From Desulfarculaceae bacterium (lineage in GTDB: Bacteria; Desulfobacterota; Desulfarculia; Desulfarculales; Desulfarculaceae), in assembly GCA_021737145.1 (NCBI GenBank), contig JAIPEN010000015.1:1-64000 (forward strand): a stretch of 64,000 bases of DNA, read 5' to 3'. The translations under genes were made by a program, and so were the position numbers. Below are positions 10,426 through 16,799 of this stretch, in pieces (positions within the stretch are counted from its first letter, which is position 1; the number at the start of each line of letters is the position of its first letter). Under the pieces are notes generated by a model. That model made no database searches. It was not told where the DNA came from and worked only from the letters and a program-made list of their open reading frames with translations.

Positions 10426-10746
10426 ATGGAAGCAAACAGACAGAGCAGGCTGGAGGCCCGGGCGCGCATCCTCAAGGCCCTGGGCCACGCCTCCCGGCTG
10501 ATGATCGTGGAGGAGCTGGCCGACGGCGAAAAGTGCGTGGCCGAGCTCACCCAGACGGTGGGCAGCGACATGTCCACCGTGTCCAAGCACCTGTCGCTGC
10601 TCAAGTCGGTGGGCCTGGTGCAGGACCGCAAGGAGGGCACCCAGGTCTTTTACCGCCTGCTGGCCCCCTGCGTGCTGGGCTTTTTCCAGTGCGTGGAAAA
10701 CGTGATGGATGTTCAAGTGCAACGCCAGATACTTCTGGCCAAGTAG
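10426..10746 (+). CDS. ArsR/SmtB-family transcriptional repressor
   Basis: A 106-residue winged-helix protein beginning after AAGGAGG. The core ILKALGHASRLMIVEELADGEKCVAELTQ...SDMSTVSKHLSLLKSVGLVQDRKEGTQVFYRL is typical of ArsR proteins. Cys46 falls in the helix after the first recognition elements (EKCVAEL), and two further cysteines lie near the C-terminus (APCVLGFFQCVE), which could make a trivalent metalloid or thiol sensor site. It is the first gene of an eight-gene operon and has a dyad over its promoter, so it is probably the local repressor released by a metal, metalloid or reactive sulfur signal. Confidence 0.92.
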   Translation: MEANRQSRLEARARILKALGHASRLMIVEELADGEKCVAELTQTVGSDMSTVSKHLSLLKSVGLVQDRKEGTQVFYRLLAPCVLGFFQCVENVMDVQVQRQILLAK

Positions 10747-10763: not shown

Positions 10764-11939
10764 ATGCTAAAGGAACGCTACAAGCTGGTAATCATCGCGG
10801 CCCTGTTCGCGGCCGCCTATTTCGTGCCCTGGGGCAGCGAGGTGGTCAGGCGCTCGGGCCTGGAGGCCTTCCTCATGCTGCGGGAGTACGCCCGCGAGCA
10901 TGTGCTCACCTGCCTGGTGCCCGCCTTTTTCATCGCCGGGGCCATCAGCGTGTTCGTGTCCCAGGCCGCGGTGCTCAAGTATTTCGGGGCCACGGCCAAG
11001 AAGATCCTGTCCTACTCGGTGGCCTCGGTGTCCGGCTCGGTGCTGGCGGTGTGCTCCTGCACCGTGCTGCCCCTGTTCGCGGGCATCTACACCCGGGGCG
11101 CTGGAATAGGCCCGGCCACGGCCTTTCTCTACTCCGGCCCGGCCATCAACGTGCTGGCCATCGTGCTCACCGCCCGCATCCTGGGCTGGGAGCTGGGCCT
11201 GGCCCGGGCCATCGGCGCGGTGGTATTCGCGGTGATCACCGGCCTGCTCATGGCCTTCATCTTTCGCAAGGACGACGCGGCCCGGGCCTCCGGCGAGATA
11301 TACCTGCCCGAGGACGAGGGCGCCGGCCGCTCCCTGGGCCAGGAGTCCCTGTTCATGCTCACCCTGGTGCTGATCCTGGTCTTCGCGGCCTTTGCCCGCC
11401 CGGCCGAGGGCGAGGCCGGAGTGTGGGCGGCTCTGTTCGCGGCCAAGTGGTGGATCACCGCCGGGCTGCTGGTGGTGCTCATGTTCATGCTGCGCGCCTG
11501 GTTCCAGCGCGAGGAGCGGGTGGAGTGGGTGCAGTCCACCTGGGGTTTCATGAAGCAGATACTGCCGCTGTTGGGCGCGGGGGTGCTGGTGGCCGGCTTC
11601 ATGCTGGGGCGTCCCGGCCACCCCGCCCTGATCCCGCCGGAGTGGATCTCGGGCGCCCTGGGGGGCAACGGCCTGGGGGCCAACCTCTTCGCCTCGGTGG
11701 CCGGGGCCCTGATGTACTTCGCCACCCTCACCGAGATACCCATTTTGCAGGGGCTCATCGGCGCGGGCATGGGCAAGGGCCCGGCCCTGGCCCTGCTGCT
11801 GGCCGGCCCGGCCCTCAGCCTGCCCAACATGCTGGTGATCGGCGGGGTCATGGGCTGGAAGAAGACCGCGGTGTTCTCCGGGATCATCGTGATCATGTCC
11901 ACCATCGCCGGCCTGATCTACGGTTCGGTGTTCGCCTGA
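10764..11939 (+). CDS. COG0701-family permease (ArsP / UPF0718 type)
   Basis: A 391-residue polytopic inner-membrane protein with about ten hydrophobic segments. The hallmark motif AVCSCTVLPLFAGIY (Cys97, Cys99) and the GPAINVLAI segment identify the COG0701 permease family, which includes organoarsenical exporters (ArsP) and proposed Cu/Zn exporters. A second hydrophobic half follows a charged loop (residues about 165-195) and repeats the fold (ATLTEIPILQGLIGAGMGKGPALALLLAGPALSLPN). It follows the ArsR gene by 17 bases. The substrate cannot be told from sequence; metal or metalloid thiolates fit the context of thioredoxin-fold neighbours. Confidence 0.9.
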   Translation: MLKERYKLVIIAALFAAAYFVPWGSEVVRRSGLEAFLMLREYAREHVLTCLVPAFFIAGAISVFVSQAAVLKYFGATAKKILSYSVASVSGSVLAVCSCTVLPLFAGIYTRGAGIGPATAFLYSGPAINVLAIVLTARILGWELGLARAIGAVVFAVITGLLMAFIFRKDDAARASGEIYLPEDEGAGRSLGQESLFMLTLVLILVFAAFARPAEGEAGVWAALFAAKWWITAGLLVVLMFMLRAWFQREERVEWVQSTWGFMKQILPLLGAGVLVAGFMLGRPGHPALIPPEWISGALGGNGLGANLFASVAGALMYFATLTEIPILQGLIGAGMGKGPALALLLAGPALSLPNMLVIGGVMGWKKTAVFSGIIVIMSTIAGLIYGSVFA

Positions 11940-11958: not shown

Positions 11959-12453
11959 ATGGACGGCATAAAGAAGATAAACGTGGGCGGCGACACCATC
12001 GGCATCCGGGGCCTGGACGCGGCCATCGAGGAGCTGAAGGCGCACTACGCCGACAAGAGCGACCCCGAGGTGGCCCAGGCCATGCTGGCCCGCTTGGAAA
12101 AGATCAACTACTTCGCGCCCACGGCCCGGGATGAATACGCCGCCGCCCTGCTGCGCGAGTTCCGCAAGGCCCTGGGCCAGCCCTTCGAGGCCGGGGAAAG
12201 CGGCGGGCTCAGCGTGCGGGTGCTGGGGCCGGGCTGCCCCCGCTGCGAACAGCTTTTCCAGCGGGTGACCAAGGTGCTGGCCGAGCTGAACCTGCCGGCC
12301 GACCTGGAGGCAATCAAGGACACCAAGGAAATAGCGGCTTCCGGGGTGCTGGTCACTCCGGGGCTGATGATCAACGGCCAGGTGAGGAGCACGGGCAAGC
12401 TGCCCACCGAACAGCAGCTGAGCCAATGGCTCGGCCAGGCCGCGAAGGAATAA
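11959..12453 (+). CDS. two-domain thioredoxin-fold protein with CPRC motif
   Basis: A 164-residue cytoplasmic protein. An N-terminal helical region (1-85) resembles a small four-helix unit (IRGLDAAIEELKA...INYFAPTARDEYAAALLREF). The C-terminal 75 residues form a small TM0996-type thioredoxin fold with VLGPGCPRCEQLF and the cis-proline loop GVLVTPGLMINGQV. The helical N-terminus is like the small domain found fused to or beside such thioredoxins in ArsR-permease operons. It starts after GGGGAG, 19 bases after the permease, and is probably a reductant or metalloid-thiol carrier for it (inferred). Confidence 0.82.
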   Translation: MDGIKKINVGGDTIGIRGLDAAIEELKAHYADKSDPEVAQAMLARLEKINYFAPTARDEYAAALLREFRKALGQPFEAGESGGLSVRVLGPGCPRCEQLFQRVTKVLAELNLPADLEAIKDTKEIAASGVLVTPGLMINGQVRSTGKLPTEQQLSQWLGQAAKE

Positions 12454-12472: not shown

Positions 12473-12706
12473 ATGGAGATAAAGGTTTTGGGCCCTGGCT
12501 GCCCCAAATGCCACCAGACCGAACAGATCGTGCGCGAGGCGGTGGCCGAGGCCGGGGTTGAGGCGGACATCGAGAAGGTCACCGGCACCATGGACATCGC
12601 CGCGGCCGGCGTCTTCGGCACCCCGGCGGTTATCATCGACGGCGAGGTGAAGATCGTGGGCAAGGTGCCCGGCAAGGACCAGGTCAAGTCCTGGCTGGGC
12701 TCGTAG
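12473..12706 (+). CDS. small thioredoxin-like protein (TM0996 family), CPKC
   Basis: A 77-residue glutaredoxin/thioredoxin-fold protein of the TM0996/MtH895 type, starting after AAAAGGAG. VLGPGCPKCHQTE carries the active-site CPKC and FGTPAVIIDGEV the cis-proline loop. It is about 45% similar by eye to the C-terminal half of the preceding protein, suggesting duplication. Such proteins often travel with COG0701 permeases. The direct redox partner is unknown. Confidence 0.9.
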   Translation: MEIKVLGPGCPKCHQTEQIVREAVAEAGVEADIEKVTGTMDIAAAGVFGTPAVIIDGEVKIVGKVPGKDQVKSWLGS

Positions 12707-12727: not shown

Positions 12728-13057
12728 ATGCGGTTGCTGGAGGAATGGTTTCCCGAGTTCGCGGCCGAGTTCGACCGGATCGACGAGCTCTACAAGGAAA
12801 AGCGCAGCATCGATGAGAAGACCTATCAGTTCATCTGCTTCGCCCTGTCCATAAAAAACCGCTCCAAGCCGTGCCTGCTCAAGCACTTCTTCGGGGCCCT
12901 GGAGGCCGGGGCCACGGTAAAGGAGCTGGCCTACATCATGGCCCTCACCTTCCGGGAAAGCGCGGGCGGCGACGACTGCTGGACCCACGATGCCCTGGGC
13001 GACTACAAGCAACTCATGGCCGAGGGCATCGGCAGCCGGGAATGCTGCGCCAAGTGA
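12728..13057 (+). CDS. carboxymuconolactone decarboxylase / AhpD-like protein
   Basis: A 109-residue all-helical protein, translated from an ATG after AAAGGAG. The segment KTYQFICFALSIKNRSKPCLLKHFFGALEAGATVKELAYIMAL matches the CMD/AhpD core, but the usual CxxC of AhpD is SKPC here: the first cysteine is replaced by serine while the second cysteine and the following histidine remain. Extra cysteines occur at GDDC and at the C-terminal ECC. A role as a thiol peroxidase partner or a thiol-dependent metalloid-handling protein would fit the operon; the family is functionally broad and no reaction is assigned. Confidence 0.8.
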   Translation: MRLLEEWFPEFAAEFDRIDELYKEKRSIDEKTYQFICFALSIKNRSKPCLLKHFFGALEAGATVKELAYIMALTFRESAGGDDCWTHDALGDYKQLMAEGIGSRECCAK

Positions 13058-13083
13058 GGCCGAGCAAAAAAGAGGAAAAACAC

Positions 13084-13482
13084 ATGCTGAAGAAATTCTG
13101 TGGCTGGGGCCTGCTGCTCCTGGCCCTGTCTTTGTTGACGCCCGCGGGAGCCGGGGCCAGCGGCGCCGCGCCGCCGGCCATCCCGGTCAAGGGCATGGTC
13201 ACCCTGGTGGATCTGGGGGCGGACAAGTGCATCCCCTGCCGCATGATGGCCCCCATCCTGGAAGAGCTGAAGCAGGAGTACAAGGGCAAGGCGGCCATCG
13301 TGTTCCTGGACGTGTGGAAGGACCGCAGCCTGGCGCCCCGCTTCGGCATCCGGGCCATTCCCACCCAGGTTTTCTATGACCGCCAGGGAAAAGAGACCTT
13401 CCGGCACGAAGGCTTTTTGAGCAAAGAGCAAATCGAGCTGGTCCTGGAAAAGCTGGGCGTTGCCAAGCCGGCCGCCAAATAA
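13084..13482 (+). CDS. exported thioredoxin-like protein
   Basis: A 132-residue protein with an N-terminal signal sequence (LLLLALSLLTPAGAGASG, cleavage near 26). The thioredoxin fold follows with active site KCIPC (Cys49, Cys52), the buried aspartate region DVWKDRSLAPRFGIRAIPTQVFYD and the cis-proline in AIPT. It should act outside the cytoplasmic membrane, accepting electrons from the CcdA-like protein encoded 25 bases downstream and passing them to periplasmic disulfides, possibly in the selenocytochrome two genes on. Confidence 0.9.
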   Translation: MLKKFCGWGLLLLALSLLTPAGAGASGAAPPAIPVKGMVTLVDLGADKCIPCRMMAPILEELKQEYKGKAAIVFLDVWKDRSLAPRFGIRAIPTQVFYDRQGKETFRHEGFLSKEQIELVLEKLGVAKPAAK

Positions 13483-13507: not shown

Positions 13508-14215
13508 ATGTGGGAGCAGTGGTTCCTGACGCTGAACTCTTGGATCACCAGCGGCAGCCTGGCTGCCCTGGCCGGGGCTTTGTTGTGGGGCGTGATCAGC
13601 GTGGCCCTCAGCCCCTGCCACCTGGCTTCCATTCCCCTGATCGTCACCTATGTGGCCGGGCAAGAGGTGGCGGTGCGGCCCCGGCGGGCGGCCCAGTACG
13701 CCGGGTTGTTCACCCTGGGGCTGTTCATCACCATCGCCCTGGTGGGCGTGGTCAGCTCCCTGCTGGGGCTGATGCTGGGCGGGGTGGGGCCTTACTGGGC
13801 CCTGCTGGTGGGGGCGCTTCTGCTCTGGGTGGCCCTGGACATGATGGGGATCAAGGCCCTGCCCCTCTCGGGCGCCTTGCTGGCCCGCTTGCGGGTGAAG
13901 GGCCGCGGCGGGGCCTTTGTCCTGGGCCTGGGGTATGGGGTGCTCTCGGGCTCCTGCACCTTTGGCTTTATCGCGCCCATCCTGGCCGTCATCACGGTGC
14001 AGAAGGACATCGTGGCCGGCTCGGCCATGATCCTGCTCTTCGGGCTGGGCCATTGCCTGCCCATCGCCCTGGCGGGCAGCTCCACCGCGGCGGTGGGCAA
14101 GCTCTTGGAAAACGCTTCATTCCAGAAGGGCAGCCTGTGGTTCAAGCGCGCCGCCGGAGCGGGCATCGCCCTGCTGGGGGTCTATTTCATTCTTTCGCCT
14201 TGGATGGGTGCTTAG
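13508..14215 (+). CDS. CcdA/DsbD-like transmembrane electron carrier
   Basis: A 235-residue integral membrane protein with six hydrophobic segments. The two cysteines of the DsbD-type transmembrane domain are seen in SPCHLASIP (first half) and SGSCTFGFIAPI (second half), each followed by a proline-containing helix as in CcdA. A third cysteine lies in GLGHCLPIAL. It moves electrons from cytoplasmic thioredoxin to periplasmic thiol proteins. It sits between an exported thioredoxin and a multihaem cytochrome, matching roles in either periplasmic thiol reduction or cytochrome c maturation. The operon setting favours supply to local targets. Confidence 0.9.
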   Translation: MWEQWFLTLNSWITSGSLAALAGALLWGVISVALSPCHLASIPLIVTYVAGQEVAVRPRRAAQYAGLFTLGLFITIALVGVVSSLLGLMLGGVGPYWALLVGALLLWVALDMMGIKALPLSGALLARLRVKGRGGAFVLGLGYGVLSGSCTFGFIAPILAVITVQKDIVAGSAMILLFGLGHCLPIALAGSSTAAVGKLLENASFQKGSLWFKRAAGAGIALLGVYFILSPWMGA

Positions 14216-14240: not shown

Positions 14241-15464
14241 GTGAATAAAGGACATTTGGCCAAGGCGGGCCTGTCGGCCCTGACGCTGGGGTTGATGGTC
14301 CTGATGACCATGGGGGCCTCGGCCGGGTCGCCGCCGGCCATACAAAGCCTGGCCCAACTGGTGGAGCATTACGACTCGGCCCGCTGCGCCGAGTGCCACG
14401 AGGAAATCCACCAGCAGTGGTCCCGCTCCCACCACGCCCGCTCCCTCATGGGCCTGAACAACTTCAGCTTCATGTCCAAGTACCTCAAGAAGGGTCCGCT
14501 GTCGGTCAAGAGCCCCGGGGAGGCCACCCTGGCCAACTTCTCCTGCGCCAAGTGCCACCTGCCCCAACTGCTGGACACCAACGACCAGGTGGCCAAGGAG
14601 CTGGCCGAGGTGATCCGGCGGGATGACAAGACCGTGATCGCCAAGCTCAACATCGGCTGCCTGGTGTGCCACCAGGACAAGGCGGTGGCGCACCACAAGC
14701 CCGCATCCGGGGTGCTCTACGGCGGCCGCGAGGTGAAGGAGCACGAGGGGGCCTTCAAGCAGGTTCGGAAGAGCCGCTTCATGTCCTCGCCCGCCTTCTG
14801 CGGTCAGTGCCATGGCCTGGGCCCCAACTTCGAGTTCACCCCGCCCATCCAGTGCGCCACTCTTTACGGCAGCTATTTGCACGCCTACGTGCCCGGGGGA
14901 GGCTCCCAGACCTGCCTGGACTGCCACAAGCAGGGATCGGACCATACCTTCGCGCCCGACTTCAGCGACAAGGCGGCCACCGGCAAGCTGTACGCCCGGG
15001 CTTTGCCCATGAGCGTGGAGGTGTTGCCCTACACCTTCCATCCGGGGCACGGCGAGAATCATCCCCGGGTGGTGGTGACCGCCTCCATCCGCAACCTGGC
15101 CGGCCACCGCCTGCCCGACGGCTGACCCTCCCGGGCTCAAGCGGTGCTGTACGCCACCGCCACCGACGAGAACAAAAAAACCGTGTACAGCCGCGAGCGC
15201 ATCTACATGCCCCAGTGCGGCAACAGCTTGGGGCAGGTGATGGTGCTGGGGCCGGACAAGAAGCTGGGCATCATCCGAGACACCACCTTCCAGCCCTGGG
15301 CCACCAAGCGCGAGGTGTTCGACATTCAACTGAACAAGCCGGCCCGGCGCCTGAAGCTCAATCTCCGGCTGGTCTACCGCCTGCGGCCGGGCGACGAGAT
15401 CCCCGTGCATGACTGGACCCGCACGGTGGACGTGGCGGGCTTGTTCCCCCAAGCGGCCCACTAA
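14241..15464 (+). CDS. periplasmic five-haem cytochrome c selenoprotein (in-frame TGA at codon 295)
   Basis: One open frame of 407 residues with a single TGA at 15123-15125, read as selenocysteine. The GTG at 14241 follows AGAGGTG and opens a signal peptide; an in-frame ATG at 14208 lies inside the previous gene. Five CxxCH motifs are visible: 49-53, 102-106, 140-144, 187-191 and 225-229. After the haem region comes a beta-rich domain whose motif AGHRLPDG ends exactly at the TGA (U295) and continues as PSRAQAVLYATATDENKKTVYSRERIY, the same fold. GHxxPTG-like motifs are known in C-terminal domains of multihaem cytochromes. A SECIS-like hairpin follows the TGA. Read as a stop, the second half would have no ribosome-binding site. 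It probably carries electrons to a selenium-centred reduction of an unknown substrate. Confidence 0.82.
15123..15160 (+). promoter_or_regulatory. bacterial SECIS-like hairpin following the cytochrome TGA
   Basis: After the TGA (15123-15125) and a 15-base spacer, GCGGTG (15141-15146) pairs perfectly with CACCGC (15155-15160). The eight-base loop CTGTACGC holds a GU and begins 21 bases after the TGA, the same distance as in the rhodanese gene. The longer loop is less like E. coli fdhF, so this one is the weaker of the two SECIS candidates. Confidence 0.6.
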
Positions 15465-15498
15465 AAAAGGCCGGCCCGGGGACGCCCCCGGACCGGCC
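15463..15498 (-). terminator. terminator between convergent genes
   Basis: A long GC stem (GGCCGG...CCGGCC extended by CCCGGGG/CCCCCGG around ACG) is flanked on its left by six A residues, so it is followed by T residues on the minus strand. It should end the dehydratase-family transcript and lies just after the cytochrome stop codon. Confidence 0.75.
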
Positions 15499-15521
15499 TG
15501 ACCTTGCCTCGTTGATTGGGA

Positions 15522-16799
15522 CTAGGCGATCATTTCCAGGAAGGCCTCGACCCTGGTCTTGAGCTGCTCGGCGTCTTCCATGCTGTAGTCGGTATCGATG
15601 CGCAGCACCGGCAGGTCGCCCTCCTCCACCTTTTTCTCCACCGGGATGGCCTCCATGGCATAGGGCTGGCAGAACTGCAGGCCGTAGTGGATCACCCCCT
15701 GGGCCTTGTAGTCGGCGGCCATCTGCTTGATGTGCTCGGGCCGCTCGGGGTTGGGGGTGAACACCGCGCAGTCGATCTTCCAGTAGCGGTCCACGATGGC
15801 CGTCATCAGCTCCTCGACGGTCTCGCCCGAGGCCTCGGTGAGGTTGCGGGTGCCGCGTTCGCCCACGCAGGACTCCTCGCCCACCACCACCGCGCCGGCG
15901 CTCTCCACCACCCAGGGCAGCTTCCAGTTGGGCACCGCCATGGGACAGCCCGAGAAGAGCAGGCGGGGAGCCCCCTTGGCCGTGGCCCCCTCGCCCTGGG
16001 CGATGCGCTTTTCCAGCTCATCGCAGAGCTTGTTCACCGAGCCGGTGAAACGCACCGGGTCGTCGTAAAAGGCCACCTGATTGATCAGCAGGGCGTCCAG
16101 GCCGGAGATGGGGGCCGGGTCGGAGGCCCTGAGCTTGTACAACCGGTGCATGGCGGCCCGCCGGTTGTTCACGATGGCGATGCCCTCCTTGAGGCGCTCG
16201 GCGGTTATCTCCACCCCGGTCAGCTCCTCCATGGCCTTTTTGAAGCGGTCATACTCCGCGGCCAGCAGGGCCTTGCCCTCTTTGGTGTGCATCTGGGGCA
16301 GGTCCATGACGTAGAGGTTGGGCACCAGGTCGTTGAGGGTCTCGTAGGACTTCTTCTTGCCGTCGCAGGTGTTCTCGCCCACGATCATGTCGGCCGATTC
16401 CAGATAGGGACATACCTTGCCCAGCTTGAAGCCGAAGGCGCTCTTGATAAGGGCGCAGGTGTTGCGGGGCAGGTACTTGTCCACCTCCTCGGTGGCGAAG
16501 TCGGCCCCGGTGCACAGGCCCACCAGGGTGGCCCCGGTGGCCCTGACGATTTCCTCGGGCACGAACACGCAGAACGAGCCCACCACTTTCTTGCCCTCGG
16601 CCTGGCCGTCGATCAGCTCCTTGATGCGCAGGCCGTGCACCTCGCTCATCACGAAGTTGAAATACTCCATGCCCTCGGGCCGGGCTTGCTGGCTGAGGAA
16701 TATGTCCTGGTATCCCTGGCCCAGCACCTCCAGGAGTTGGTCGTGGGCGGCCAGGTCTAGGCCCAGGCTCTGCCACATGGCTTTGTAATCTTCGCTCAC
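15522..16799 (-). CDS. 2-hydroxyacyl-CoA dehydratase-family (double-cubane cluster type) protein
   Basis: A 425-residue HgdB/FldC-superfamily protein, starting at GTG after GGGGAGG. Conserved segments include VGENTCDGKKK, FSGCPMAVPNWKLP and HYGLQFCQPY, which carry cysteines for Fe-S binding. Being a single subunit without a paired second subunit, it resembles the YjiM / double-cubane cluster protein group, reductases thought to use an ATP-driven activator, rather than classical two-subunit 2-hydroxyacyl-CoA dehydratases. No HgdC-like activator is adjacent, so it must be elsewhere if required. Monocistronic; substrate unknown. Confidence 0.85.
   Translation of the reverse strand: MSEDYKAMWQSLGLDLAAHDQLLEVLGQGYQDIFLSQQARPEGMEYFNFVMSEVHGLRIKELIDGQAEGKKVVGSFCVFVPEEIVRATGATLVGLCTGADFATEEVDKYLPRNTCALIKSAFGFKLGKVCPYLESADMIVGENTCDGKKKSYETLNDLVPNLYVMDLPQMHTKEGKALLAAEYDRFKKAMEELTGVEITAERLKEGIAIVNNRRAAMHRLYKLRASDPAPISGLDALLINQVAFYDDPVRFTGSVNKLCDELEKRIAQGEGATAKGAPRLLFSGCPMAVPNWKLPWVVESAGAVVVGEESCVGERGTRNLTEASGETVEELMTAIVDRYWKIDCAVFTPNPERPEHIKQMAADYKAQGVIHYGLQFCQPYAMEAIPVEKKVEEGDLPVLRIDTDYSMEDAEQLKTRVEAFLEMIA

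Follow-up and report, generated by a model that had tools for sequence, protein, structure and literature searches.

The ExtKL family of multihaem cytochromes was first noted in Geobacter, where GSU2937-2936 is predicted to encode a five-haem cytochrome containing selenocysteine (Sec), and where the surrounding ext gene cluster has been tied to selenite and tellurite reduction, as an extI mutant is impaired in this respect (PMC5877670; PMC6148476). ExtKL is included among the prokaryotic selenoproteins in a 2026 review (PMC13188914). Structures have been deposited for a relative named "Multiheme cytochrome c selenoprotein (MccSep)" (PDB 9wt8, 9wta and 9wtb) and for its U325A mutant, in which Sec is replaced by Ala (9wt9 and 9wtc). 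The selenium in MccSep is given by the deposited name and the sequence, and the literature searched contained no paper on this protein. A different line of work concerns arsenic resistance (ars) operons, in which Castillo and Saier (2010) described a set composed of CcdA, thioredoxin and "redox-active disulfide protein 2"; no cytochrome is mentioned in this context (PMC2963123). As ArsC is a cytoplasmic protein, these authors considered electron flow across the membrane less likely, and what an exported thioredoxin and a membrane-spanning thiol carrier do in ars operons was left open (PMC2963123).

The window, i.e. the whole stretch of 64,000 nucleotides from a Desulfarculaceae bacterium that was analyzed, contains at positions 14241-15464 (+) a single reading frame of 407 codons, which starts with GTG, encodes five CxxCH motifs and is interrupted by an in-frame TGA at 15123-15125. 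This TGA is codon 295 and 112 further codons follow it; the sequence around it reads GHRLPDG-U-PSRAQAVLYATATDEN. Translation of the frame reproduced exactly the coordinates, the five haems, the TGA at 15123 and the GHRLPDG-U motif that had been given by a preceding sequence-only reading. The encoded protein scores 414.3 bits with the NCBIfam model NF040886, "multiheme c-type cytochrome (seleno)protein ExtKL", covering profile positions 9-422 of 423, while the curated cut-off is 250 bits. Its five haem c attachment sites (14385-14927, +; first codons at 14385, 14544, 14658, 14799 and 14913) sit at the positions typical of the ExtKL family and are invariant among the homologues. A signal peptide, recognized by eye at about residues 1-28, suggests export, making a periplasmic location very probable. 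In the AlphaFold model (mean pLDDT 88.6), the haem domain is helical and the C-terminal domain is of the beta type.

To obtain homologues, whole genomes of the order and the phylum were searched with NF040886 and each hit was translated through the TGA; a peptide-pattern scan of the genome contigs gave no match. Among the 54 homologues aligned, the Sec column is encoded by TGA in 48, by a Cys codon in four and by an Ile or Val codon in two, the latter being paralogues. The sequence-only reading had pointed to Cys or U at codon 295, and this is what the column largely holds (48 U, 4 C, 1 I, 1 V). Replacement of Sec by Ile or Val (PDS-I/V) is seen in the ExtKL copies at loci L083 (8556-11259) and L086. 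In one genome such an Ile/Val copy directly adjoins a Cys copy and, therefore, Sec was lost after duplication. Another locus (L105; G106 C8:94530-95026) carries a second, broken ExtKL copy, in which the Sec motif is present and a further stop follows soon after.

Downstream of the TGA, a hairpin resembling bacterial SECIS elements is located at 15141-15160 (+). The perfect six-pair stem that had been noticed 15 bases after the TGA is indeed present (GCGGUG/CACCGC; arms GCGGTG at 15141-15146 and CACCGC at 15155-15160) and encloses the loop CUGUACGC. Taken alone, this hairpin is unremarkable: among sequences that encode the same protein with the codon usage of the region, about 25% form a six-pair Watson-Crick stem somewhere in the stretch by chance, and folding of the RNA gives a z-score of -1.0. 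We therefore set aside any judgment based on the window alone, and the weight of the hairpin as evidence derives from its conservation in homologues. The same helix with at least five of six pairs is kept at the same distance in 43 of the 48 Sec homologues, whereas the five Cys, Ile or Val copies examined retain only two to four of the six pairs. Across the family, pair counts exceed those of shuffled controls, the best score is obtained at zero slide, and changes on both sides occur in four of seven pairs. The loop-closing pair is G-C in the window and its nearest relative versus C-G in the family, and on the 5' side this swap amounts to a synonymous Val codon change. The genome also encodes the machinery for selenium incorporation, namely SelA, SelB, SelD and tRNA-Sec (73 bits). 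The gene of its own SelD (C19:137897-138823, -; L114) has an in-frame TGA, as in the selenoprotein forms of SelD.

A GTG at 15144 opens a frame of 106 amino acids, and the TGA could accordingly be an ordinary stop, leaving 15144-15464 as a separate gene or a remnant. However, the Cys copies read straight through this position, the SECIS-like hairpin is kept only together with the TGA, the selenium machinery is present, and the C-terminal domain is conserved and belongs to a single chain in the solved MccSep. The homologues and the hairpin rule out this reading, to which we give practically no chance. Taken together, NF040886, the 54-homologue alignment and the match to MccSep make it nearly certain that the gene product is a five-haem cytochrome c of the periplasm that belongs to the ExtKL/MccSep family, with UGA codon 295 predicted to be read as Sec. 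The call of a five-haem selenoprotein made from the bare sequence is upheld by the NF040886 score, the Sec column of the homologues, the SECIS-like hairpin and the selenium machinery. Its statement that no named function was known for this arrangement did not hold, since the family is named in NCBIfam (ExtKL), a relative has been solved (MccSep) and a gene cluster has been tied to selenite/tellurite reduction. The protein itself is thus a new member of an already named family.

The window protein shares with G. sulfurreducens ExtKL the five haems, the C-terminal domain, the AGHxxPDG-U motif and the UGA followed by a hairpin. In contrast, it belongs to a separate clade and shares about 35% identity with the long proteins of the ext type. 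It aligns with MccSep over residues 34-363 (E about 1e-61), with Sec295 corresponding to U325, but MccSep is an ext-type sequence carrying longer inserts. The best match in a structure library was the pentahaem cytochrome c552 of Thermochromatium tepidum (PDB 5ze8), aligned over 438 columns with E = 3.9e-15. This cytochrome keeps the His of the GHxxP motif but reads PHAMPTGAP, with Ala for Sec, and lacks selenocysteine.

Alignments with homologues and paralogues also highlight the residues around the Sec site, which lies in the motif (G)HRLPDGU (His289 to Sec295; 15105-15125, +). Judging from 12 Sec-less paralogues, all members of the wider haem family have the GHxxP His, whereas Sec is confined to ExtKL; the paralogues have Val, Ser, Ile, Ala, Leu or Met at this position and one has a gap. 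As this His is also conserved in clades I and II of the ExtKL tree (see below), His289 is probably a haem ligand, with Sec six residues further on. A Cys outside the haem motifs, Cys205 (IQCATLYGSY; 14853-14855, +), is invariant in all 54 homologues and absent from the 12 Sec-less paralogues. It is a possible thiol partner of Sec or, alternatively, the sixth ligand of the fifth haem. The latter role is suggested by the fact that clades I and II offer only four conserved candidates for distal His ligands outside CxxCH (H65, H168, H235 and H289) for five haems, H151 being nearly conserved. The view of Cys205 as a proven partner of Sec was set aside because the Ile/Val copies retain Cys205 too.

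The extKL gene forms the end of an operon on the plus strand, which opens with an ArsR/SmtB metalloregulator (10426-10746; NF033788, 86 bits, cut-off 55) and an ArsP_1-family permease (10770-11939; PF03773, 250 bits) scoring below the cut-offs of the NCBIfam SaoE and SO_0444 models. These are followed by a protein with a C-terminal MTH895/ArsE-type thioredoxin domain (11959-12453; TIGR00412, 79 bits) and an MTH895/ArsE-type thioredoxin, i.e. a "redox-active disulfide protein 2" (12473-12706; TIGR00412, 95 bits, cut-off 62). Next comes a carboxymuconolactone-decarboxylase/AhpD-like protein (12728-13057; PF02627, 23.8 bits, barely above cut-off), which shows a weak, below-cut-off likeness to the GSU3128 (seleno)protein family; in the congeners examined, probing around ExtKL detected no close copy, but a close relative (81%) occurs at locus L142. 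An exported thioredoxin with a CIPC motif (13075-13482; PF00085, 53 bits; signal peptide by eye) and a CcdA/DsbD_TM transmembrane thiol-electron carrier (13508-14215; PF02683, 52.8 bits) precede extKL, the latter ending 25 nt upstream of it. The sequence-only reading was right to see extKL as the last gene of a thioredoxin/CcdA operon but missed the ArsR/ArsP genes at its start and with them the arsenic context. Past the stop codon, a strong hairpin at 15468-15499 (-29.4 kcal/mol, z -5.5) is a probable bidirectional terminator between convergent genes. The convergent neighbor is a separate gene at 15522-16799 (-) for an anaerobic reductase containing a double-cubane cluster (NF040772, 472 bits).

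The neighborhood thus differs from that of Geobacter extKL, which is flanked by extHIJ and extMNOPQS: when the genes next to the window extKL were probed for the ext cluster (extHIJKLMNOPQS), none of the neighbors matched, the surrounding genes being arsR, arsP, trx and ccdA. Location in an ext cluster, although typical of Geobacter ExtKL, is not part of the NF040886 model. The three redox proteins of the module of Castillo and Saier are present together with ArsR and ArsP, and the window operon adds to them a periplasmic Sec/haem protein. An ars operon would be expected to combine an ArsR-type regulator with a reductase or an exporter of arsenicals; the window has ArsR and the ArsP_1 permease, and Acr3 and ArsC are absent from this operon and appear only in the versions of relatives. 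The Acr3 of the genome is encoded on another contig, beside an ArsC-like neighbor.

The ExtKL tree has three main clades, i.e. the long ext-type proteins (I), the clade of the window protein (II) and the "ULW" type (III). Probing the neighborhoods by tblastn revealed Acr3, ArsP or ArsC near 16 of 27 clade-II loci, from five families, in contrast to 0 of 18 loci of clade I and 0 of 12 of clade III (30 together). The Fisher p for this association is 2e-7 by locus, which ignores relatedness, and about 0.001 by family as tallied by hand. No ars genes were found near the clade-II loci of two families (f79 and f17) and of one congener (G005). In close relatives the typical order is arsR, arsP, ArsE-type thioredoxin, DGC protein, arsC, acr3, exported thioredoxin, ccdA and extKL, with extKL following ccdA directly and, in most of them, at a spacing similar to that in the window. 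Curated models assigned the relatives' Acr3 (472 bits) and DGC protein (115 bits), while ArsC reached 139 bits, below its equivalog cut-off. ArsR, thioredoxins and CcdA recur around clade-II ExtKL in several differing gene orders. As far as literature searches show, this tie of a whole ExtKL clade to ars operons is seemingly undescribed and looks new.

The converse does not apply. Close relatives of the operon's CcdA (at least 54% identity) are encoded in about 65 of 395 genomes of the phylum, most of which lack clade-II ExtKL, and among 20 such CcdA loci that were read none had clade-II ExtKL nearby, although many are ars operons as well. These data rule out that CcdA in ars operons generally has ExtKL as its partner. 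As the CcdA/thioredoxin module is widespread in ars operons without ExtKL, the latter is an optional addition, and the periplasmic Sec/haem protein could serve as electron acceptor of the module in a minority of such operons only. In a related arsenic operon (L161; G381), the place after ccdA is taken, as judged by eye, not by extKL but by an apparent arsenite methyltransferase gene.

The genomic context argues that clade-II ExtKL works, on balance, in an ArsR-controlled operon for detoxification of metalloids, i.e. arsenic. We propose the window protein as a putative periplasmic selenol/haem reductase of this pathway. Thioredoxins inside the cell would pass electrons to CcdA, through which they would cross the membrane and reach the exported thioredoxin; this protein would keep the Sec295 site reduced by direct transfer to Sec. 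The selenol, the nearby haem and possibly Cys205 might then exchange electrons in the periplasm with an oxidized metalloid or metalloid-thiol compound; the chain of haems would couple this exchange to the periplasmic cytochrome pool. As a net result, a toxic metalloid would be reduced outside the cytoplasm; both the reductive direction and the metalloid substrate are suppositions. That reduction occurs at a selenium center outside the membrane, as the sequence-only reading had suggested, is plausible, the reaction of ExtKL being putative. Typical low-potential multihaem cytochromes have potentials below those of the As(V)/As(III) and Se(IV)/Se(0) couples. Owing to these generally known potentials and to the impaired selenite/tellurite reduction of the Geobacter extI mutant (PMC5877670), the reductive direction is favored. 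The arsenic reading is weakened by the lack of Acr3 and ArsC in the window operon, by clade-II loci without ars genes and by the optional nature of ExtKL; moreover, not all PF03773 permeases are arsenic exporters. A more specific idea is that clade-II ExtKL is devoted to arsenic detoxification and acts as a selenol/haem reductase in the periplasm, with the CcdA-thioredoxin relay as its electron supply; this is put forward as tentative and less likely than not.

Other functions must be weighed against it. CcdA and the exported thioredoxin may merely keep the cysteines of haem attachment sites or other periplasmic cysteines reduced, in cytochrome c maturation or in the repair of arsenite-damaged proteins, in which case ExtKL would be an electron-transfer protein that is not fed by them. 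CcdA/ResA-type pairs keep cysteines reduced in system II cytochrome maturation, which speaks for this possibility, as does the frequency of the CcdA/Trx module in ars operons without ExtKL. However, cytochrome-less ars operons with CcdA/Trx imply that the module is not there to mature a cytochrome; moreover, ExtKL follows right behind CcdA (25 nt, similarly in most close relatives) and stays with the module in other families despite different gene orders. We regard this explanation as rather unlikely. Less credit still is given to a function identical to that of Geobacter ExtKL, i.e. reduction of selenite and tellurite; the arsenic genes would then be neighbors by chance or through co-selection. 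The family, the Sec motif and the five haems are all shared, and ArsR/ArsP systems are able to respond to several metalloids, but clade II lacks ext neighbors and has ars neighbors in several families.

Electrons might also flow in the opposite direction. Sec/Cys would bind trivalent arsenicals after their export by ArsP or Acr3, and electrons would be withdrawn by the haems to yield the less toxic pentavalent forms. Selenols bind As(III) strongly, and the association of ExtKL with exporters of arsenite and organoarsenicals would fit; yet low-potential haems in an anaerobic setting reduced by CcdA favor reduction, and reduction is also what the Geobacter relative has been tied to (PMC5877670), rendering oxidation improbable.

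If the tentative assignment of clade-II ExtKL as a dedicated arsenic-detoxification enzyme is true, ars operons with clade-II ExtKL would gain a periplasmic arm that cytoplasmic ArsC lacks. For the operons bearing ExtKL, this may answer why they have an exported thioredoxin and a membrane-spanning thiol carrier although arsenate reductase is cytoplasmic. One Sec-haem scaffold would then serve for selenite and tellurite in one lineage and for arsenic in another.
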